Shown here piece after piece: positions 19,606 through 47,100 of a stretch of 64,000 bases of DNA; within the stretch, counting starts at the first letter, position 1; every line of letters begins with the position of its first letter. The position numbers were made by a program, and so were the translations under genes. Source of the stretch: Antedon mediterranea (taxonomy: Eukaryota > Echinodermata > Crinoidea > Comatulida > Antedonidae); assembly GCF_964355755.1 (NCBI RefSeq), contig NC_092671.1, positions 12,938,501 to 13,002,500 of the forward strand, read 5' to 3'. The notes beneath the pieces were generated by a model that was not told where the DNA came from, made no database searches, and saw only the letters and a program-made list of their open reading frames with translations.

Positions 19606-21149
19606 TGTCAAAATAAATAAGAAATATTTCTTACTAAAAACGCTGCTCGTTGACGTAACAGTTTTAAAGATATATTGTCCCCCTGAAAAATATTTTTTGT
19701 TATTTTATTGTCACATAATAGTTATTCTGTTGCCTTATTTAAAAAATTGCTCAAAACTCATTTTTTCGACCACTAACATGCCCAGCGCCTTTGATTTTGT
19801 ACCTCGGTCTTTGAATTGACGCTTTATAAATATTGATATAATAATAATAATAATGATAATTATTTACCTGAAATAAAATGTAATTTAAAGCAAAAAAATC
19901 TTAAATTGTCTGTCAGACAATGGTTTTTGGGTTATAATTAAACGTTTCTTTTCTGTTAAATTTATACAGGAAATTATTTTTTTGTTACAGAAGTGAATAA
20001 CTTTTTGTATTTGATACTTTCATACTTTGATATGTCATAATTGTGCAAAATAAAAACTACTGAATCTGTAAAAGATGATGTCTAAATAATATTACTTTAT
20101 TATACTAAACAGACTCAATTTCTGTCACTTTAGTTTATTTTATTGCTAATGTCAAGTCTGTGGGTCACTTCATCAAGCCTAGCTGATGCTTGAAGTGTCA
20201 ACAAATTATGTCCTATTACAACCAAAAACTAGATTGACAGTCAATGGGACTCATTGTAAATACCAGAAATAATGTTTTGATTATTAGACAGTGAATTATT
20301 ATAATACTGGCCAATGTTGACAGACTCTCTTTTTCCAGCCGTGCTTTGGGGTTTGTAATTTTAGCATGACCCGTGATAGTTTACAAAGTACCAAAAACGT
20401 CGGCCTCTAGAACTATAACTGCTGCTTGCTTTAGCTTCTGAATGAGTAGTCCTCTTGGGACGTACCTGGCTAAAGCAGCACCTTGAAAAAAATGCGACTA
20501 AAAAAAAATTGCAAAAAGATAGTTGTCTACTCCTTGCTCACTTAATGATTCACAATGTGCAAAATATAGATATATAAAAGACACACTTAGACTATGAGTA
20601 CGGTATTCTGTTGGTCGGTGTCAAGAAGTAGAATGACATTCTGACATCTGATTGATTGTGGAGTGAAATATTAATATTAAGTTTTTAGCTTTTCAGAATT
20701 GTATCTTTCATTTGTTTGTATGTAAAGAAATTTAAACTATCTATTAGGCCCCTACCTAGTAATTGTATCTTGGAACCTGTATAACATATTAAAAATTGTG
20801 TGGAAGTACAACTATAATTATTAATTAAGTACATCCCCATCTCCACCCCAAATCCCCCCCCCCCCTCCCCTTGCTGGCTAATAATATTAATAATATTAAT
20901 AATAAAGTTAGTGTGTGAAGCGAAGCCGCCTATAAAATGTAAATCTCCTCATACAAATAAAACTATTTAATAAAACTATTAAGGCGGCCACTATTAACTA
21001 GGGCTGATAGGCTCTAATATACATGTAGGCTAGTGCATATACAATGAAATGCGAAAATAAACAACACCGATAAACAACAAGGTGCTAACCAACAAGTAAC
21101 CAACACTAACCCCAGCTCCGGATCCTCTCTCCACTGAGCTATATTTCCT
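19606..21149. other. MAN2C1 upstream region
   Basis: No further exon is recognised. The interval holds the presumed MAN2C1 promoter and 5' UTR at its left, a small imperfect hairpin at about 20165-20200 (CACTTCATCAAGC with GCTTGAAGTG), a C tract at about 20856 and an (AAT)n run near 20880. Confidence 0.45.
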
Positions 21150-21514
21150 ATACCATCCTGGCTAGTTGAGAATTCTCAACTATTTTATGTTTTTTACTAC
21201 CTTTCTGGAAAATGATATAATCCAAATTGTATTAATACTACAAGTAGTAAACATTTAGAAACACTAGCATACCTTCACTAATTTTAGTTGTTTGTAGTTT
21301 AAGACAATCTTAGTGATATTTAAATGAAAACAATACGATAAAAACTATTGTGTCTGTATTTTACAAGACTATGACTTCCGTATAACGTGCATTGTGGGTA
21401 CTTCAATTTTTATAGAAAAGCTAGGGAATCCTAATTTAGTAGGCAGCATATGGGGGCGGGGCAACCAAACTTGCTTATCAAATCAAAGTACAGTAAAGCA
21501 AAGGATAGAATTAA

Positions 21515-22650
21515 TGTACGATCCAGTTTACCACTGTTCTCAACTATAGTCATTTTAGTATACTTGAGCACAGTGATAAAGAATAGGATAAACTTAACAA
21601 TATACAACAAATAACATTAATGTACGATCCCGTTTAACACTGTTCTCAACTATAGTCATTTTGGTATACTTGAGAACAGTGATAAAGAATAGGATAAACT
21701 TAACATTATACAACAAATAACATTAATGTACGATCCCGTTTAAAACTGTTCTCAACTATAGTCATTTTGGTATACTTGAGCACAGTGATAAAGAATAGGA
21801 TAAACTTAACAATATACAACAAATAACATTAATGTACGATCCCGTTTAACACTGTTCTCAACTATAGTCATTTTGGTATACTTGAGAACAGTGATAAAGA
21901 ATAGGATAAACTTAACATTATACAACAAATAACATTAATGTACGATCCCGTTTAAAACTGTTCTCAACTATAGTCATTTTGGTATACTTGAGCACAGTGA
22001 TAAAGAATAGGATAAACTTAATAATATACAACAAATAGCATTAATGTACGATCCCGTTTAACACTGTTCTCAACTATAGTCATTTTGGTATACTTGAGCA
22101 CAGTGATAAAGAATAGGATAAACTTAATAATATACAACAAATAACATTAATGTAGGCCTATGATCCCGTTTAACACTGTTCTCAACTATAGTCATTTTGG
22201 TATACTTGAGCACAGTGATAAAGAATAGGATAAACTTAATAATATACAACAAATAACATTAATGTACGATCCAGTTTAACACTGTTCTCAACTATAGTCA
22301 TTTTGGTATACTTGAGCACAGTGATAAAGAATAGGATAAACTTAATAATATACAACAAATAACATTAATGTATGATCCCGTTTAACACTGTTCTCGACTA
22401 TAGTCATTTTGGTATACTTGAGCACAGTGATAAAGAATAGGATAAACTTAACAATATACAACAAATAACATTAATGTACGATCCCGTTTAACACTGTTCT
22501 CGACTATAGTCATTTTGGTATACTTGAGCACAGTGATAAAGAATAGGATAAACTTCGAATAAACAGCAAATAACATTAATGTACGATGCCGTTTAATACT
22601 GTTTTAAACTATAGTCATTTGAGTATAATTAATCACAGATAAAGAATAAG
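21515..22650 (+). repeat. 106-bp satellite array, left arm (about 11 copies)
   Basis: Units start at TGTACGAT-type words at 21515, 21621, 21727, 21833, 21939, 22045, 22151, 22263, 22369, 22475 and 22580: period 106, one unit longer by 6 bases because of a GGCCTA insertion at about 22155. Each unit contains CACTGTTCTCAA and TTGAGCACAGTG as inverted arms around a 20-base loop with TATAGTCATTTTGGTATA. The last unit (from 22580) is the most diverged. Confidence 0.95.
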
Positions 22651-22739
22651 ATCAACTTTAATACTATTTATTAAATAAAAAAAACTAATTCTATATTAAC
22701 ACATATTATTTACATATACTTTCACTGCTGATTTCTAGT

Positions 22740-22930
22740 ATAAACAGGCCATAGGCCTATACATGGCTGCAGTCGCGTGCTCAAATTTGAGTTGGTGTTT
22801 ACCGACCGACCGACATAGTGAGCTGTAGAGTCGCGTTTGCACGCTACTAAAAAGTTCACAAAAACCGTAGGACGGGCACAGGGGAGTTTGTTCGAAACTC
22901 CAACTCCTCCCCTGGCTATGCGTTTAGATT
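22740..22930. repeat. GC-richer dispersed-repeat-like segment in the foldback centre
   Basis: A segment of higher GC than its surroundings contains GTTTACCGACCGACCGACAT, AGTGAGCTGTAGAGTCGCG and a short hairpin in which GGGGAGTTTGTTCGAAACTCC closes on itself around TTCGAA. It is not tandem with the neighbouring arrays. It looks like a separate inserted or captured repeat; its class is unknown. Confidence 0.4.
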
Positions 22931-23049
22931 TGTCATGCCTCCTTTACAAACCAAGATTATTAGAATACTATTAGGAGGATCAAACACAATTCTTGTTTCC
23001 AGATTTCATTGACATTACAGGTATGAAGTCTATCAATATACAGTAGCGC

Positions 23050-24330
23050 TTAATACAATACTTGTTGAGGCCATATCCATCTATACATTTTAGTGTTATT
23101 CCACTTTAAAAAAGTCGATTTATATCAATACGATATAACAATAGAATTTATTGCAACTTGTCCATGTCGTATTCATCTACAAATAAAGTGTCTATTACCG
23201 TACTTTTAAAAATCTATTTATATCAATACCTATCAACGTATGTACGTGTGCATATTATATATACAAAAATATATACATCAACATAAATGTCATATCATTT
23301 ACAGTCATTAGTGTTATTTCACTTTTAATATTAGTAAATCCAAAGGCAAAATACTGAAATAATAACAATGCTGTGGTCTCAATGGAGATACAAAAAAAGA
23401 AGCGAAAAGCTAAATCAAAACGATAAAGTTAGAAAAGTTAGCAGAGTTTTCGGGCAACACTAGCCCTTCATCATTGCAAGTGAGGGTACTTGTACAAGAT
23501 AGTGTTATTTAACGTTTAGTCGATTTATATCAATACACTCATCAACATAATATGTACGTGCAATTCACGTCTACAATCAATAGTGTTAATTCCACTTTTA
23601 AAAGTCGATTTATATCAATATACTCATCAACATATGTACGTGTCCACGTCATATTCATCTATAAAATATTAGTGTTATTTCACTTTTAAAAGTCGATTTA
23701 TCAATATACTCATCAATAAATATACTTGTCCACGTCATATTCATCTACAATCAATAGTGTTATTTCACTTTTAAAAGTCGATTTATATCAATATACTCAT
23801 CAACATTATGTACCGTACGTGTCCACGTCATGTTCATCTACAAATATTAGTGTTATTTCACTTTTAAAAGTCGATTTATATCAATATACTCATCAACATA
23901 TGTAAATCGTGTCCAAGTCATATTCATCTACAAATATTAGTGTTAATTTGACTTTTAAAAGTCGATTTATATCAATATACTAATCAATATATGTACGTGT
24001 CCACGTCATATTCATTTACAAATCAGTGTTATTTCACTTTTCGAAGTCAATTATATCAATATAGGCCTACTCATCAACATATGTACGTGCAATTCACGTC
24101 ATATTCATATATGATCAATAGTGTACAACTAATAGTGTTATTTCACTTTTCAAAGTCGATTTATATAAATATACTACTCATCAACATAATGTACGTGCAA
24201 TTCACGTCATATTTATCTACAATCATTTGTGTTAATTCCACTTTTAAAAGTCAATTTATATCAATTACTTATGAACATATATGTACGTGTCTGCGTCATT
24301 CATCTACAAATATTATAGTGTTATTATGTT
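23050..24330 (+). repeat. Second tandem repeat (about 80-110 bp) between the satellite arms
   Basis: The phrase TTAGTGTTATTTCACTTTT then AAAGTCGATTTATATCAATA and ACTCATCAACATATGTACGT recurs at least ten times with variable spacing, most regularly from 23540 to 24330. Copies differ by small indels, so this array is older or less homogenised than the flanking 106-bp satellite. The unit is unrelated in sequence to the 106-bp unit. At about 23345-23510 it is interrupted by unrelated sequence including GGGCAACACTAGCCCTTCAT. Confidence 0.8.
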
Positions 24331-27300
24331 TTTCATATTATCACTGTGCTCAAGTATATGAAAATGACTATAGTTGAGAACAGTGTTAAACAGGATCGTG
24401 TACATTAATGTTATTTGTTGTATATTGTGCTCAAGTATACCAAAATGACTATAGTTGAGAACAGTGTTAAACTGGATCGTACATTTTTGTTGTATATTGT
24501 TAAGTTTATCCTATTCTTTATCACTGTGCTCAAGCATACCAAAATGACTATAGTTGAGAACAGTGTTAAACGGGATCGTACATTGATGTTATTTGTTGTA
24601 TATTGTTAAGTTTATCCTATTCTTTATCACTGTGCTCAAGTATACCAAAATGACTATAGTTGAGAACAGTGTTAAACGGGATCGTACATTGATGTTATTT
24701 GTTGTATATTGTTAAGTTTATCCTATTCTTTATCACTGTGCTCAAGTATACCAAAATGACTATAGTCGAGAACAGTGTTAAACGGGATCATACATTAATG
24801 TTATTTGTTGTATATTGTTAAGTTTATCCTATTCTTTATCACTGTGCTCAAGTATACCAAAATGGCTATAGTTGAGAACAGTGTTAAACTGGATCGTACA
24901 TTTTTGTGGTATATTGTTAAGTTTATCCTATTCTTTATCACTGTGCTCAAGTATACCAAAATGACTATAGTCGAGAACAGTGTTAAACGGGATCGTACAT
25001 TAATGTTATTTGTTGTATATTGTTAAGTTTATCCTATTCTTTATCACTGTGCTCAAGTATACCAAAATGACTTTAGTTGAGAACAGTGTTAAACGGGATC
25101 GTACATTAATGTTTTTTGTTGTATATTGTTAAGTTTATCCTATTCTTTATCACTGTGCTCAAGTATACCAAAATGACTATAGTGTTGAGAACAGTGTTAA
25201 ACTGGATCGTACATTTTTGTTGTATATTGTTAAGTTTATCCTATTCTTTATCACTGTGCTCAAGTATACCAAAATGACTATAGTCGAGAACAGTGTTAAA
25301 CGGGATCGTACATTAATGTTATTTGTTGTATATTGTTAAGTTTATCCTATTCTTTATCACTGTGCTCAAGTATACCAAAATGACTATAGTTGAGAACAGT
25401 GTTAAACGGGAACGTACATTAATGTTTTTTGTTGTATATTGTTAAGTTTATCCTATTCTTTATCACTGTGCTCAAGTATACCAAAATGACTATAGTTGAG
25501 AACAGTGTTAAACTGGATCGTACATTTTTGTTGTATATTGTTAAGTTTATCCTATTCTTTATCACTGTGCTCAAGTATACCAAAATGACTATAGTCGAGA
25601 ACAGTGTTAAACGGGATCATACATTAATGTTATTTGTTGTATATTGTTAAGTTTATCCTATTCTTTATCACTGTGCTCAAGTATACCAAAATGACTATAG
25701 TTGAGAACAGTGTTAAACGGGATCGTACATTAATGTTTTTTGTTGTATATTGTTAAGTTTATCCTATTCTTTATCACTGTGCTCAAGTATACCAAAATGA
25801 CTATAGTGTTGAGAACAGTGTTAAACTGGATCGTACATTTTTGTTGTATATTGTTAAGTTTATCCTATTCTTTATCACTGTGCTCAAGTATACCAAAATG
25901 ACTATAGTCGAGAACAGTGTTAAACGGGATCGTACATTAATGTTATTTGTTGTATATTGTTAAGTTTATCCTATTCTTTATCACTGTGCTCAAGTATACC
26001 AAAATGACTATAGTTGAGAACAGTGTTAAACGGGAACGTACATTAATGTTTTTTGTTGTATATTGTTAAGTTTATCCTATTCTTTATCACTGTGCTCAAG
26101 TATACCAAAATGACTATAGTTGAGAACAGTGTTAAACTGGATCGTACATTTTTGTTGTATATTGTTAAGTTTATCCTATTCTTTATCACTGTGCTCAAGT
26201 ATACCAAAATGACTATAGTCGGGAACAGTGTTAAACGGGATCATACATTAATGTTATTTGTTGTATATTGTTAAGTTTATCCTATTCTTTATCACTGTGC
26301 TCAAGTATACCAAAATGATAGTCGAGAACAGTGTTAAACGGGATCATACATTAATGTTATTTGTTGTATATTGTTAAGTTTATCCTATTCTTTATCACTG
26401 TGCTCAAGTATACCAAAATGACTATAGTTGAGAACAGTGTTAAACTGGATCGTACATTTTTGTTGTATATTGTTAAGTTTATCCTATTCTTTATCACTGT
26501 GCTCAAGTATACCAAAATGATAGTCGAGAACAGTGTTAAACGGGATCATACATTAATGTTATTTGTTGTATATTGTTAAGTTTATCCTATTCTTTATCAC
26601 TGTGCTCAAGTATACCAAAATGACTATAGTCGAGAACAGTGTTAAACGGGATCATACATTAATGTTATTTGTTGTATATTGTTAAGTTTATCCTATTCTT
26701 TATCACTGTGCTCAAGTATACCAAAATGACTATAGTCGAGAACAGTGTTAAACGGGATCGTACATTAATGTTATTTGTTGTATATTGTTAAGTTTATCCT
26801 ATTCTTTATCACTGTGCTCAAGTATACCAAAATGACTAAAGTTGAGAACAGTGTTTAACGGGATCATACATTAATGTTATTTGTTGTATATTGTTAAGTT
26901 TATCCTATTCTTTATCACTGTGCTCAAGTATACCAAAATGATAGTCGAGAACAGTGTTAAACAGGATCATACATTAATGTTATTTGTTGTATATTGTTAA
27001 GTTTATCCTATTCTTTATCACTGTGCTCAAGTATACCAAAATGACTATAGTTGAGAACAGTGTTAAACTGGATCGTACATTTTTGTTGTATATTGTTAAG
27101 TTTATCCTATTCTTTATCACTGTGCTCAAGTATACCAAAATGACTATAGTCGAGAACAGTGTTAAACGGGATCGTACATTAATGTTATTTGTTGTATATT
27201 GTTAAGTTTATCCTATTCTTTATCAATGTGCTCAAGTATACCAAAATGACTATAGTCGAGAACAGTGTTAAACGGGATCATACATTAATGTTATTGTTGT

Positions 27301-28065
27301 ATATTGTTAAGTTTATCCTATTCTTTATCACTGTGCTCAAGTATACCAAAATGACTATAGTTGAGAACAGTGTTAAACGGGATCATACATTAATGTTATT
27401 TGTTGTATATTGTTAAGTTTATCCTATTCTTTATCACTGTGCTCATATATACCAAAATGATAGTCGAGAACAGTGTTAAACGGGATCATACATTAATGTT
27501 ATTTGTTGTATATTGTTAAGTTTATCCTATTCTTTATCACTGTGCTCAAGTATACCAAAATGACTATAGTTGAGAACAGTGTTAAACAGGATCGTACATT
27601 GATGTTATTTGTTGTATATTCGTAAGTTTATCCTATTCTTTATCACTGTGCTCAAGTATACCAAAATGACTATAGTTGAGAACAGTGTTAGACGGGATCA
27701 TACATTAATGTTATTTGTTGTATATTGTTAAGTTTATCCTATTCTTTATCACTGTGCTCTAGTACTGTATACCAAACTGACTATAGTTGAGAACAGTGTT
27801 AAACGGGATCGTACATTGTTGTTGTATATTGTTAAGTTTATCCTATTCTTTATCACTGTGCTCAAGTACACCAAAATGGCTATAGTTGAGAACAGTGTTA
27901 AACGGGATCGTACATTAATGTTATTTGTTGTATATTGTTAAGTTTATCCTATTCTTTATCACTGTGCTCAAGTATACCAAAATGACTATAGTTGAGAACA
28001 GTGTTAAACTACATCGTACAGTAATGTTATTTGTTGTATATTGTTAAGTGTATTCTTTATTCTTA
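24330..28065 (-). repeat. 106-bp satellite array, right arm (about 35 copies), inverted
   Basis: Same unit as the left arm but reverse-complemented (CAAGTATACCAAAATGACTA then GTTGAGAACAGTG). Several unit variants exist: short units where ACATTTTTGTTGTATATTG replaces the ACATTAATGTTATTTGTTG version, units missing four bases in AAAATGATAGTCGAG, and GTTGAG versus GTCGAG versions. The order of variants repeats every 624 bp from about 24805 to 26270, a higher-order repeat. Open frames of about 73 codons recur in it, but they are translated satellite, not genes. Confidence 0.95.
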
Positions 28066-28375
28066 TTAATTGTACTAAATTATTAAAAGAAACAGTAGTA
28101 AGCATAACATTTCCCCACTCCTACATTAGCATGGTAGGACATTGTAAGTCGCAGGTGGCTCAACTTTATTACTGCAATGGGATGGACATGGTCCTACTAC
28201 CACCTTACCATCCAATAGGATTCCAGTAAATTTCCTTTACTACCAATCATAATTCAGTAATTAAATGACCCTTTAAGTTAACAAGGAAATCAGCCTATCC
28301 CATTATACCGGTAGGCTTCGTCGTACAGGCGTACTGCGGTAATAGTTGAGAATTCTCAACCAGCCAATTTGGTAT

Positions 28376-28900
28376 ATTTTATATACCTGCTCCACTTCGT
28401 GCCTGGTCCGTGTGGTACTTACCTATCTCCCGGTCGTTGGTTAAGTAATGTAAAATAGCGCCTTCTATATACGACGTATAATATAATTTCACGCTTCGGT
28501 GGTTTCTACAATAACAAACCATGCCAAGTTAAAAAAAATACTATTAGGCCTACTAATTATTTGATTAAAAACCAAGGTTGTTGTTAGATTGCCTTGAAAA
28601 TCGAAACGATAAAAAAGCGTTAATTCAACAATATTATTTTGATTATGCAAATTTGATTATGTAAATGTTGCTGCTTATAGATGAACATCTTATTTTTATA
28701 TTAAAACAATTGGTTTTATTCATTTTTCTTGTACTGATGAAGGGCTAGATGCTCTACAAATTGCTCTGGCTGTTTTACTTTTGTTTTGTTCCATTGAGAT
28801 CCAATCACTGATACCCACAGGCCTTAGGTCCTACATTGTTTGCTATTAATGTTATGATAATATATATATATATATTTTTTTTTAATCAAATATAAAATAT
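28376..28900. other. Non-coding sequence right of the foldback element
   Basis: No exon is seen. At about 28731-28800 the text TACTGATGAAGGGCTAGATG resembles, in inverse orientation, the GGGCAACACTAGCCCTTCAT segment inside the foldback centre (about 23450), suggesting a dispersed repeat. A short AT dinucleotide run precedes 28880. Confidence 0.4.
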
Positions 28901-41100: not shown

Positions 41101-44100
41101 AATTAGTATGACTAGAATAATCAAGGAGAGGTGGTGCTAAATATTTGGAGAAGCGGCCGTTTGAGAACATCCAAGAGGTTCCAAAGTCTGTACTGACTAT
41201 TCTGATCAAAAATTGCAAAAGCCAAAATTTACCATACATTCCATGCTGACCCTTCTTATAACACTGACCCTTCTTATAACACTGTCCCTTCCTACAAAAC
41301 GTATCGTATCGTAAATAGACATTGTCCTTGCCTGCTGTAGTAATGTTTTAAATATACACTGTCCCTTCCCACTATATGTCCCTTCATACTTAACATTTGC
41401 CCATATGTCTCCCGGTGTGATGATCTTGTAGGCGCTGCACTGCTGGTTGCCGTGGGTCTGTTGAGGGCCTAATCTGAATTTCCTCAGTTTCCAGTTAAAG
41501 CTTGAGGACTAGAATAATATATTTAAAATTTAACAATTTTACAGCTGTTGATTCCTATAATAAAAGTGTCCCTTCTATTCTACTGCAGTGATGCTTTAAA
41601 TAGACATTTTCCCTTCCTACTGAACACTGTCCTTTCTACTACTGTATATGTCCCTTCCAGAGAGTTGTAATCAGCCAAAGGCTAGAGGGCGTACTCCAGA
41701 CTGAAAAGTGATTCCAACAGGAGGGGGTGGGTGGGGGGGACCAACAAGATGGCAGCCGTAAATATGTTCAAAAACATTATTTAATATAAAAAATAATAAT
41801 CTAGAATATAATACATTAAGACTACATAAATTACAACACATATTCTTGTATGCACAGTGAAGTTTTTATAAAATTAAATATGTTGTTAATCATAATGGAA
41901 TAAAATAATTACATGGTAATTTTTAGCAATTTTTTGTATACGAGGATCATATAGAATGCATTCATGTTCATACGCTCAAGACGATGATTGCATATCTAAG
42001 GGAGAGAATGTGAAAAATACCTCTCACGCTGAGTGAGTCACAGTGAGTAAGTGTGGCCGAGCGGTTAAGACAGTCGAACCGTAATCCATAGCCATAACAT
42101 CGCTCCATGGTTCTGGTGGTAGAACAAGTCTTCTCGGATAAGGACTATAAACCGTAGGTCCAGTGTACATCTGGCTCATGTGCACTTTAAAGTACCTAGT
42201 ACATCTTTCGAGACGAGTAGGGGGTTACCCCGGTGTACTAGTTCATACATACACACTGTCGTGGACAGATGTAATGGCGCCATAGTTGGCTGCCGATGAC
42301 ACGATGTGACCCTTAGGGGAGAAGAATGTTGTCCACATCGCCTTTCATCACTAATTGTTGCTGGAATTGGCGCTTTACAAATTTGTATATTATTATTATA
42401 TTATACGGTCAACACAGGCGTAGTAGTGCGTGACTGCGTAGGGCATATCTGATTGGTCGATTGCAGTCACCATCTTGTTGGTTCCCTCTCCATGTAGAAT
42501 CATTTTTTGAACTGCGATAACATTGCAGTTTGCTATCTAGCTATTGGCTATATAAAATCATTGGTCCCTTCATACTTGATATTTCCCCTTACTAACTGTT
42601 TTTTCCAATGATTCCACGTCTTGTAGAGATGTTCTCATTAATTAATCAAAATCCTTCAAATGATCTAAAACTAATTTAAATGCCTTTTTGATCTGAATTA
42701 GTACATTATCTCTCCAAAAATGTACTTCCATCGCGAAACCAGTCATAACATTCAATTCGCGGCAAAAGTACAAAACAGGTGGTGCTGTTGTATTTAAAAA
42801 AAAATGTTTTCCAAACGCAAAAGAATTTTTTTTTTCATACACGAAAAAAATTCACGCCATGTAACCCACAATCGTCCAATCAAATGACAGGAATTTATTT
42901 GGGTGTTATATAATATGATGTAGAAACCTCCCTACTTTACAGTTAGTACTGTTTTTAATACACTGTCTTCACTTTTCTCTTACTACAAATTGTTGATTCC
43001 TACAACAGACACATGCCCCTAGTATTAATCTTTTCTTCTAAACTTAGCTAAGCTTGTCCTATGACCAACCTACTCTACAGTATGTTATTAAATGTCTTGA
43101 TTCTATGTAAATTCAGTTGGAGGAATTTTATATAAAAAAATAGATACTATGAATAATTAATTAATTGTTAATGTCAAATTTTCAAGGTTGAATGAATATG
43201 AATGTATGAATTAATCAAGGGATAAATGACTACAGGCAGGATATATAAAGTATTACAGATACTGTAGATTCATGGATAGAAAATTTCATAAGATAAATAA
43301 CTGTAGTAAGTATCGATGTATATTTTCATTATGCATGAATTAATTATGGATAGTATGACTTTAGGCCTTTTGAAAAACCTCCTCGCAAGGGTTATTCTAC
43401 AATTTTATCGGAATGATTTTCTGTCCATTTTAACATGATTTCTTGAATCTGATTTAAGACTAATTGATTCAGAATTAATTACAATTTTATGAAAAAGAAC
43501 AACTTTAAAACAAATGGTTTGTCTGGATTTTTTGATCTCGAAAAACTAAATCTACTGTTTAGCGGTCTAATATTAATAATTGAACTCATGTGTACATGAT
43601 ATGTATTTGAATATAATGTAACCAGGCTGTGAACTTCACAGAGCACAAATCTATCAAAGTACATTATTAATGATTATTTACAAACAGGTAATTATTTATT
43701 GCGAGCTATTGCTGTGTAAACTGTCTTGCTTTAGTCTCTCTCAAACCACTGCATTAATAGTCTTGTTTTGAAATTGACAACAGAGGAAATTATAGATACT
43801 GTCATTGTCACAAAGAAGTGCTTTTGCTGGTATCCTGGTTTTAATACAAACGTGAAAACCTACAAGGTGCACTTGGTTTTCTATAATTAAATTACAGGTT
43901 ATGATGCTACTACTAGTGTACAGAAGTATGCACTGTATAGTACATGAACTCTGAAACAATTATATACAGTATAAATGTAAATCATGAAACCAAAGTCATT
44001 ATCAGTAAGACTATGAATGAATAATAACAACACAGCACCATACAGATGACATGCTTTATGTACAATGTTCAATGTTTTTTTGCACGCACACACGATACTA

Positions 44101-47100
44101 CAAGGTCAAGGTTATATATACCATTGCTACTTGTATGTAGTGTTTGGTTGTTATCTCGTTGGCTTACTGTTATGTAGGCTTACGCACAGTTCCAAGTTGA
44201 TGTTCGATGTTTTTTGCGCGCGCACACGATACTACAAGGTCAAGGTTATATATACCATTGCTATTTGTATGTAGTGTTTGGTTGTTAACTCGTTGGCTTA
44301 CTGTTATGTAGGCTTACGCACAGTTCCAAGTTGATGTTCGATGTTTTTTGCGCGCGCGCACACGATACTACAAGGTCAAGGCTATATATACCATTGCTAC
44401 TTATGGTTGGTTGTTAACTCGTTGGCTTACTGTTATGTACGTATAGTTCCAAGTCGATGTTCGATTCAAAATTTTTTGCGCACGATACTACAAAGTCAAG
44501 GTCATATCTATTGCTACTTTTAGTGTTTTGTTGTTAACTCGTTGGCTTACTGTTATGATTGTATGTATAGTTCCAAGTCGATGTTCGATTCAAAATTTTT
44601 GGCGCACGATACTACAAAGTCAAGGTCATATCTATTGCTACTTTTAGTGTTTTGTTGTTAACTCGTTGGCTTACTGTTATGTACGTATAGTTCCAAGTCG
44701 ATGTTCGATTCAAAATTTTTTGCGCACAATACTACAAAGTCAAGGTCATATCTATTGCTACTTTTAGTGTTTTGTTGTTAACTCGTTGACTTACTGTTAT
44801 GTACGTATAGGTCTAAGTCGATGTCGAAAGCCAACGAATTAACAACCACACAAGCAACAATGATATAATATTGCCTTGACCTTGAAGTATCGTGCACCCG
44901 CGCAGGAAATAACAAATATCATCTTGAACTATTACGTACATTAAACCAACGAGTTAACAATGCAAAGCGTGCACGAGCAGCAAATGGTAATAATCCAACG
45001 ACCCTAACAGACGTATCGTAAATACACAAGTTTTGAAACAACTCAATATAATCATGATATAATGTATTAAGTCGATCAAAATTGTTTGGAGTCTAGCACT
45101 AAATTTGATTTTGTTTTTTACATTTGTGGGCATTATTATATTTGTGGGTGATGGTTGTTTTCACATTTGTGGGCGCTGTTTATTACATTTGTTGGTGATG
45201 CGTTTTCACCTTTGTGGTTGTTTTCACATTTGTGGGTGATGCGTTTTCACCTTTGTGGGCGTTTTCACATTTGTGGGTGATACGTTTTCACATTTGTGGG
45301 CGTTTTCACATTTGTGGGCGTTTTCACATTTGTGGGTGATACGTTTTCACATTTGTGGTCTTTTTCACATTTGTGGGCGTTTTCACATTTGTGGTCGTTT
45401 TCACATTTGTGGATGATACATTTTCACATTTGTGGGCGTTTCACATTTGTGGGCTTTTTCACATTTGTGGGTGATACGTTTTCACATTTGTGGGCGTTTT
45501 CACATTTGTGGGTTCAACACCCCTTCTAACCTAGCAGCAGCTTGCCTTATTTGTATGGAGTGTGGAATGCCTTTAATGATAGTTCTGTATGTTTATTTTT
45601 CTTTCATCTCTTTTTTTTGTCAACTTCCAGGAAAAGTCTGCATACTCCTGATGTCTAAATATGTTCATTGCATAATTAAATTTCATTCAGATATACGTAA
45701 AATCCGTTCCCTGTAAAGGAATCTCTCATTCACAGTTCAGTGATCATGGGTTGTAGCTTTAATTAATATTAATTTTATGTTCAGGCTCCAGTACTACTTA
45801 CATAATATCATAAATAATGTTGAGTGAGGCACCAGTATAAATTAGTACAAAATTAATCAATGGACATTGCATGTAAACTTAAATATTTAATTTTTTTTTA
45901 AATTAAATTTTAAACTGATTGCCTTTATACTTCAAAATGACTTTTTAAGAATTAAGGTACTGTAGACAACCATTTAATATCATTTTCCAAGAGGCCAAAG
46001 TAAACTCTAAGCATACTGAGTGTATGATATGAACAATGTGGTACATGCTGAACAGACAAGGCAAATTATTAAATTTCTGTCAAGATAAAATAAGAAATAT
46101 ATTGTCTTTGTACAAAAACAATCCCACTGTATTCCTTAACTAGCTACAAAAATTTGCCTGTTTCCATATAGAAACAAATAAAAAAGGCGGAAATTTCTTA
46201 CAGAACACATTGTTCACAAATCCCAACATACCATCATCATGTCTTACACAGAGTTACTTCATAAAATTAGTTTTCTATGGCAAAACAAATACTAATGTGC
46301 AGTATATTTGCTGTAAATTTGTGAAAATCTGGTATTTGGTACATAGTCTTTTTTATCGTATTTATAAACATGTGTTGACATTGTGAATTTGTTCCCACTG
46401 GTTATTTACGTTTATAATGAAGAAGGTTAATTTGATACTCATTTGTCATTTGTCAATTTAATATCTAGAAACAGTAGTCAGCTGTTTATACTGTACATTA
46501 GCTATTCTATTTATAGCTCATGACATAATTAATTAAACACATCAAAGGCAGAAATTAATATTTGTAATATTACACTTGGGATACAGTATGGTAAGGTTTG
46601 TTTCTAGATAGCTAATTTATTTGCTATTTATTTGATTATTTCACCATTTACCCATTGAACATCTTTCTATCTATATTCTGAAATTGAACAGAATACTAGA
46701 CAAAAGAAATCACTATTATTACAGTATACTGTAGCTTATCATTAAATCAAATGTATTTTGTACTAATGAGTTGACTCCCTAAAAATCCATGTACATGCAA
46801 AACCCAAGTACTTTACAAATCGTACCATGACATTTTGTGTTCAAAAGGAGAGATTATGTTTTAGGTGAAGTACATTACTGAATAATGTGGTCATTGAAAT
46901 ATAGTAGAATTCCTATTAAGGAGATAACTTTAATTAATTGAACACTACACTAGTATATATTTACTGTAGACTTCAGAAGTACACGTAGACATGATTTTAC
47001 CCATGACGCATTAACAATGACTGATACTTCAGCTTCTTCTGTACTTACAAGTTTTTTTTTTTATACCCGAGTAGATTATAATGATGTTTAAAAAGAAACT

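Follow-up and report, generated by a model that had tools for sequence, protein, structure and literature searches.

The window, that is, the whole stretch of 64,000 nucleotides of Antedon mediterranea DNA that was analysed, holds a complete transposable element of a family that we call A, composed of the following parts.

21129..21135, unstranded: left target-site duplication, CTCCACT
21136..28389, plus strand: whole family A element, 7254 bp, with the same boundaries in 12 other copies read whole
21136..21184, plus strand: left tip, terminal inverted repeat of the GAGC.../TCC type
21165..21180, unstranded: palindrome GTTGAGAATTCTCAAC, exact, in the left tip
21185..21509, plus strand: left sub-terminal segment, single copy
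21510..22658, plus strand: left arm, 106-bp unit in 10.8 copies (Tandem Repeats Finder)
22659..24339, plus strand: centre
23500..24325, plus strand: repeats of about 85-93 bp within the centre
24340..28053, minus strand: right arm, the left arm's 106-bp unit in opposite orientation, about 35 copies
28054..28340, plus strand: right sub-terminal segment, single copy, different from that on the left
28341..28389, minus strand: right tip, terminal inverted repeat of the CAGG.../AAT type
28345..28360, unstranded: palindrome GTTGAGAATTCTCAAC, exact, in the right tip
28390..28396, unstranded: right target-site duplication, CTCCACT

An earlier note on this DNA had counted the 106-bp unit about 11 times forward and about 35 times reversed, in good agreement with Tandem Repeats Finder, which places the right array, in the reverse-complemented unit, at 24426-28053 with 34.9 copies. 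The right arm of this copy also has a higher-order period of 311 bp (three units), and the inverted-repeat pairs of the window are 95-98% complementary among the 25 longest. The tips resemble each other over about 49 bp, with differences, and the match between the sub-terminal segments (about 370 bp on the left, about 306 bp on the right) is confined to the tip (blastn). In 11 of the other 12 whole-read A copies, the left segment and its tip are 96-99% alike across about 372 bp; in the remaining copy (L022) this stretch is cut to 154 bp. Across the genome the left segment is matched at 97-100% at least 42 times, the best 40 candidates having been scored. The palindromic core that had been described in both ends is present and exact in each; judged from the window alone, the pair is only suggestive, as GTTGAGAATTCTCAAC with up to three mismatches is found twice against 0.41 expected, and two matches are also reached in 5 of 100 shuffles. 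The longest stop-free frame in the centre of the window copy is 141 aa. This centre is matched wholly or partly in ten of the 12 other whole-read copies (longest match 84-98% identical), and no match to it was found in the two shortest.

For the matched termini, the genome-wide count of the end pattern was decisive. A 31-base pattern of the family A end has 55 + 54 matches in the 354-Mb genome, compared with 0 + 0 for the reversed-pattern control; the earlier note was right about the matching ends and about their presence at many loci, but had placed each end 14 bp too far inward. Among the 100 ends listed there are at least 45 family A pairs, each of which, by reading, joins one TCC-type and one AAT-type end when single-base variants are allowed. 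The opposed arrays that it predicted at many loci were found in 13 of 13 A copies read whole, always with the plus arm on the left and the minus arm on the right, and even the shortest copy (2.7 kb) has both. Counting only units that span most of the consensus, the arms of these copies range from about 4 to 32 units on the left and from about 4 to 63 on the right. Three further places stand outside the 13: L025-L026, which has 7 kb of foreign DNA within its left arm and was entered in the duplication count only; L027, a diverged part; and L028, whose right end is absent from the fetched 8 kb, which include a run of N. A search with the unit, which the earlier note had proposed, gave 226 exact matches genome-wide, and no unlinked array was seen among the 100 of them listed, every one being located within an A end or next to one. 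Three candidate free arrays were rejected: C8:17691240 adjoins a diverged right end, and for both C2:11864859 and C2:11910857 there is a right end, 89% identical, at a distance of about 1 kb.

The short duplications that had also been predicted are present as exact 7-bp repeats at 31 of the 37 A pairs checked (10/13 whole copies, 17/20 further pairs and 4/4 more pairs), the matching heptamer being missing at the other 6. In family B, described below, they were found in 13/13 copies (10/10 further pairs and 3/3 fully read), and for one B copy a paralogous empty site holds the 7 bp once. No duplication of 8 bp or more was matched among 30 further pairs (20 A and 10 B). The 37 target heptamers tallied are diverse, without a strong motif. 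Family A is a non-coding transposon present in dozens of genome copies, and with its inverted tandem-repeat arms and a target-site duplication at matched termini it belongs to the foldback type; the earlier reading, a foldback element with a single satellite arrayed in opposite directions as its two arms, is supported.

Family B has tips related to those of A and opposed arrays of a 101-bp unit that is about 75% like the A unit, again with the plus arm on the left and the minus arm on the right (3/3 copies); outside the arrays, A and B have only a 27-bp tip segment in common (blastn). A further tip pattern turned up family B together with a third type, C. The four places of type C that were read (a nested copy in L009-L010, and L034, L035 and L036) share their surroundings, with AGGGGG/CCCCCT ends at a TTAA site seen in two of them, and type C looks like a relic carried within the AGGGGG/CCCCCT-ended element. 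Another tip pattern led to ten places, of which one is a diverged A end and three belong to type C. The remaining six, read as 2.5-3 kb pieces, comprise what reads as a short two-tipped piece (L045), three places where a single tip was found and two local palindromes, and no A or B array was seen in them, although 26 bp of L045 match unit B. L044, in the same genome, is a separate element of the FB and TU sort, with 10-bp repeats and an apparent 9-bp duplication.

The relation of the arms to each other and to the tips was examined at the level of consensus and of single units. In the copies sampled, the consensuses of the left and right arms are identical within A and within B, whereas the A and B consensuses differ at 40 of 109 columns, and no column groups by side (L027 was omitted from this comparison). 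The description of one array as the exact reverse complement of the other holds for the consensuses and is slightly too strong for single units, which in A are on average about 5-6% apart in the copies sampled. As identity within a family is combined with divergence between families, the opposed arms, judged by their sequences, evolve together, a concerted outcome that these copies demonstrate. Single copies do not as a rule show recent conversion, because a copy's own arms share a longer exact stretch than its left arm does with the right arms of other copies in only 3 of 14 copies, and in one of these three the difference is a single base. Part of the A tip, including a half-palindrome, recurs in gapped form within unit A: the alignment with the right tip scores 32 and that with the left tip 22, and neither score was attained in any of 300 shuffles. 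The corresponding match in family B is not beyond chance (reached by 38 and 32 of 300 shuffles).

One alternative, which we think possible but doubtful, is that the arms are a passenger satellite without a role, that is, a tip-derived or captured repeat that was expanded by unequal exchange and is tolerated by an element with short tips. The wide differences in arm length among copies and the chance-level match of the B unit to its own tips are in keeping with this. On the other hand, homologous, like-oriented arms are kept in two families that otherwise share only the tip segment, both arms are retained in all 13 whole A copies, down to the shortest, and the A tip motif is present in the A unit.

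No transposase was recognised in the A or B copies read, as judged from the stop-free frames listed. P-type genes exist in the genome (13 matches to PF12017 and 12 to PF21788); when these places were compared by eye, as candidates for an autonomous partner, with the listed A pairs and with the B pairs among the first 100 places (contigs 1-3), none was inside such a pair. Loose scans of 12 P-type loci read in all or part (5 + 4 + 3) gave only scattered matches to the A or B tips at up to 3-4 mismatches, some of them uninspected. The superfamily assignment thus rests on the length of the duplication. Exact 7-bp duplications flank the P-superfamily copies L118, L119 and L030, of which L030 and L118 have Pfam matches to P-transposase domains; L031 has 6 of 7 positions, and no duplication was seen at L033. 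Because two P-superfamily families in this genome also make 7-bp duplications, our best guess is that a P-type transposase acting in trans moves families A and B. L040 and L041 are near-identical copies, each carrying a P-like frame of 617 aa. Their 99.5% likeness extends across about 6.5 kb and reaches, or nearly reaches, the end of the fetched pieces, so that it does not mark their right end.

A non-P transposase, for instance of Dada or of a group not yet described, might instead move the same element with the same arms, although we consider this rather unlikely. The tips differ in those P elements whose tips were found, and Dada duplications are 6 or 7 bp long according to excerpts of PMC8869645. 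The same excerpts have many Dada families inserting into multicopy small RNA genes, in contrast to the lack of a strong motif in the heptamers here, and the 7-bp duplications made by two P families in the genome also count against this reading.

Long inverted arrays are error-prone to assemble, and Helentrons insert between T and T without target duplication. A Helentron-type non-autonomous element carrying a satellite, as in oysters, whose elements also scatter satellite-like arrays (PMC7492417, in part), is very improbable, as it is already contradicted by the 7-bp duplications, and inverted tips at both ends and opposed arrays are likewise not the Helentron pattern. Chance juxtaposition or misassembly of one satellite inserted twice, for all the difficulty of such arrays, can practically be dismissed given the same order in 13/13 whole-read copies at different target duplications, the duplications at 27 of 30 further end pairs and the paralogous empty site of one B copy.

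Taken jointly, the observations are probably best explained by a non-autonomous foldback cut-and-paste DNA transposon served by a P-type transposase, with arms that are candidate binding sites and are kept alike. The short tips would be recognised by a transposase produced elsewhere, which is most likely a member of the P superfamily, and the element inserts with the 7-bp target duplication that is seen. Because the 106-bp unit holds the gapped, half-palindromic copy of part of the tip, the arms probably offer, as in Galileo, additional sites for the transposase to bind; in the copies read, the units of both arms have the same orientation with respect to the end closest to them. The opposed arms expand and contract freely and stay alike within a lineage; the mirrored arrays may undergo conversion or inversion with each other, or one arm may be renewed from its counterpart. 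More tentatively, the mirrored arms could be a self-renewing array of candidate transposase-binding sites, the end motif of each lineage having been copied into its own satellite, and pairing or conversion between the two arrays holding the arm consensuses identical as the lineages diverge; if so, the foldback geometry itself would maintain the recognition signal of the ends.

Why foldback elements carry repeat arms is a long-standing question. Here two related families, sharing only tip sequence and arms as far as compared, are present in dozens of copies with arms of about 4 to 63 units, a natural series for asking whether the arms aid transposition, and they show clearly how arrays facing one another can evolve in concert. 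They also bear on the origin of dispersed satellites: in the sample examined, the A satellite was confined to the transposon and its immediate surroundings.

The FB elements of Drosophila and the TU elements of sea urchin have tandem-repeat arms in inverted orientation, with shorter repeats and 8-10-bp duplications; the arm build is alike, and the repeats and duplications differ from those of family A. They had been named as precedents, which holds loosely, but Galileo and Tetris are closer, as far as extracts of PMC3688188 and PMC4079207 describe them.

Galileo, a foldback-like member of the P superfamily in Drosophila, has mostly 7-bp duplications, as here; the tandem repeats in some of its arms hold secondary transposase-binding sites, a role that is proposed here for the arms by analogy; and it too has copies without transposase and some mismatched 7-bp flanks (parts of PMC3688188, PMC3573991 and PMC4168063). 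In D. willistoni most Galileo target-site duplications are 7 bp (PMC4168063, in part). In contrast to Galileo, no preference for GTANTAC was seen in the 37 heptamers tallied. Galileo arms are long inverted repeats, whereas in the present element the stretch that separates tip from array is not the same on the left and on the right, and Galileo units number two or three (D. mojavensis group F) or up to 9 (one D. willistoni copy), compared with up to 63 here.

Tetris, a foldback element of Drosophila virilis, has arms of tandem repeats of about 220 bp, in which a 37-bp stretch is about 80% like part of the outer flanking domain, and for it, too, no complete transposase source was found, according to sections of PMC4079207. 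The unit-to-tip match reported here is evidence of a like kind. The same sections give Tetris duplications of 8-10 bp, against 7 bp here, and an outer domain that can reach 866 bp within the inverted repeat; no such long flanking domain was found on both sides of the present element, whose sub-terminal segments match within the tip only (blastn). Tetris repeats stood alone in 39 of 69 repeat-bearing contigs, and fibre-FISH saw no repeat-only array (PMC4079207, in part), whereas in Antedon all 100 listed unit matches are in or beside a family A end.

The earlier note described opposed arrays of a 106-bp unit around a centre of about 1.7 kb, enclosed by palindromic ends, and all of these were found where it placed them. 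Comparison with other copies moved the element ends 14 bp further out. The window features are as follows.

21136-28389: family A element, boundaries from comparison with other copies
44079-44824: tandem repeat with a 120-bp unit, outside the family A element
45115-45513: tandem repeat with an 18/41-bp unit, outside the family A element

The heptamer CTCCACT lies on either side of the element, which belongs to a foldback family (family A) with a TCC-type left tip and an AAT-type right tip. When the A end pattern was searched at up to three mismatches in the genome (354,431,138 bases, 18 contigs), 55 forward and 54 reverse matches were found, and none with the reversed pattern as control. Among the 100 end matches listed, 90 make 45 inward-facing pairs, which delimit elements 2.7 to 18.6 kb long (median 7.1 kb); each of the 45 pairs combines one TCC-type with one AAT-type end, as read from the match list with single-base variants allowed. 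The other 10 had no partner among those listed, and further end searches supplied one for some of them.

Twelve whole A copies were fetched in addition to the window copy. All 13 follow the order left end, + array, centre, - array, right end, apart from the two shortest, in which nothing matches the window centre; the arms hold about 4-32 units on the left and about 4-63 on the right, and some copies carry additional insertions. One such nested insertion accounts for the length of the 18.6-kb copy. The left ends of the 12 other copies (one cut to 154 bp) are 96-99% identical to that of the window copy and the right ends 97-98%, which suggests from sequence likeness that the family is young. 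The longest stop-free frame is 141 aa in the window copy and 226 aa among all 13, the latter within the insertion nested in the 18.6-kb copy; no transposase was recognised when the frames of A copies were inspected visually rather than scanned with Pfam.

Of the 13 whole A copies, 10 are flanked by exact 7-bp duplications, as are 17 of 20 further pairs and 4 of 4 more pairs with fetched flanks, 31 of 37 in total. In family B, a second family with related tips and opposed arrays of a 101-bp unit (unit B), such duplications flank all three copies read and 10/10 further pairs. No match of at least 8 bp occurred in the 30 further pairs (20 A, 10 B). Right heptamers dealt at random matched on average 0.8 of 20 times for A and 0.9 of 10 for B (maximum 5), about the level given by drawing the true partner. 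The 37 heptamers tallied, 27 from further A and B pairs and 10 from whole A copies, have no strong shared motif.

Some copies are close neighbours: two A copies lie end to end with CAATCGA three times (G000:C1:15786460-15799030), two are separated by about 11 bp (G000:C7:4704810-4716378), and an A and a B copy are about 17 bp apart (G000:C2:14548477-14564130). Insertion next to an existing element end may be favoured. The tips of a right and a left A end (G000:C3:536286-536594 and 633734-634105) point towards one another with about 97 kb of other DNA between them. Their flanks differ, and the layout may reflect a rearrangement between copies.

A 70-base stretch of unit A has 125 + 101 exact matches in the genome. 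Of 100 matches listed, 92 fall between paired A ends, 6 adjoin a single A end on contig 3, and the remaining 2 are about 1 kb away from a right end with 89% identity; no unlinked array was found among these 100 of 226, the exact query missing diverged units. In the sample listed, the satellite is confined to the family A element.

Family B was found within the 18.6-kb A copy (L009-L010): a repeated element occupies a TTAA site there and itself holds a second foldback element. The tips of this nested B copy are CAGGTATATAAACTATACC and GAGCTATATATCC. A related-tip pattern gave 209 + 180 matches (control, 0); the 100 listed comprise, judged by their letters, B ends, relics of a third tip type (C), which are common, and one diverged A end. 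The surroundings of C recur in L034, L035 and L036, and in two of these four places the AGGGGG...CCCCCT ends of the repeated element were seen in a TTAA site; this element thus seems to carry C as a small relic, with a tip of the A/B group and the palindrome GGTCGAGTCGACC. For the nested B copy, L034 contains a paralogous empty site, against which the B flanks score 442 when joined with a single heptamer and 429 with both; the junction is ungapped, two mismatches fall within the heptamer, and a single base is gapped slightly further upstream. The three B copies read have opposed 101-bp arrays around a centre of several kb, and no frame in them was recognised as a transposase. In L037 and L038, 15-bp minisatellites in opposed orientation (GATGAAAATTGCGTC with its reverse complement) also occur within the B centre itself. 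When the A left end, centre and right end were compared with the three B copies by blastn (E 0.001), the only match was 27 bp of tip sequence in the right end; unit A is about 70-77% identical to individual units from the nested B copy across 60-78 bases.

Within each family the left and right arms have the same consensus sequence (472 units for A, 101 for B), whereas the A and B consensus sequences differ in 40 of 109 columns, gaps counted; no column groups by side. Separate inverted duplications in A and in B would also produce this result and may account for it. Arms evolving together by family is what we observe: among 476 A units, a single column differs between left and right arms by more than 25% in frequency, and the mean distance is 0.0535 within an arm, 0.0560 to the other arm of the same copy, 0.0588 to the same arm of other copies and 0.0602 to their other arm. 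A copy's own left-right exact match exceeds all matches of its left arm to other right arms in only 3 of 14 copies, once by a single base; exchange between arms thus either predates most of the present copies or happens rarely in any one copy.

Tips were aligned to units and scored against 300 dinucleotide shuffles. The alignment of the right A tip to unit A spans 27 bases with a single gap of 2 bases and scores 32, and that of the left A tip scores 22; no shuffle reached either score. Nothing beyond chance was seen for A tips with unit B (30 and 24 shuffles), B tips with unit B (38 and 32), B tips with unit A (19 and 83), or the C tip with either unit (200 and 226). By eye, the nine bases after the shared ACCAAA..TG block agree in 9/9 within A, 8/9 within B and 5/9 across families, a possible family-specific agreement and a lead only.

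P-type genes are present in the genome. One P element, about 5.55 kb long (L118, L119 and L120 on G000 contigs C1, C8 and C3; 99.0-99.5% alike), with tips CTGAGACAACAATC, has exact 7-bp duplications in both copies with both ends read (L118, L119) and a 794-aa frame, open in all three copies, matching P-type RNase H and GTP-binding domains. On the opposite strand it has another frame, about 330 aa long, for which L118 gives no Pfam match. A second P family has a duplication that is exact over 7 bp in L030 and 6/7 in L031, and none in L033; L030 gives THAP and P-transposase matches. Two further copies (L040 and L041, contigs C3 and C6), 99.5% alike across about 6.5 kb, up to or near the end of the fetched pieces, have three frames: one P-like (617 aa), one of 342 aa and one of about 140 aa that contains cysteine. 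The duplication length of A and B agrees with the P superfamily, and their tip sequences tie neither to any P element read; we therefore regard both as probably moved by a P-type transposase and avoid calling them P elements.

Family A is a real non-autonomous transposon family with mirrored satellite arms, probably young, and a new form of foldback element. The strongest new findings are that, in the sample, its satellite is confined to the element, and that opposed arms are identical family by family. Its left and right sub-terminal segments match by blastn in the tip alone, in contrast to classical long inverted repeats. A separate foldback element in L044 (G000:C5:30455700-30458770, about 617-1713 of the reverse complement) is of the classical FB build: its opposed arrays consist of a 10-bp repeat (ACCGAAAACA), and inspection by eye indicates a duplication of 9 bp, GTAATACTG. 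A word search of the accessible open-licence literature, by terms and not by sequence, found no pair of families with co-diverged arms. In the part of the literature available, the closest known systems to family A are Galileo, a Drosophila foldback of the P superfamily, and Tetris of Drosophila virilis; by analogy, A and B probably work like Galileo.
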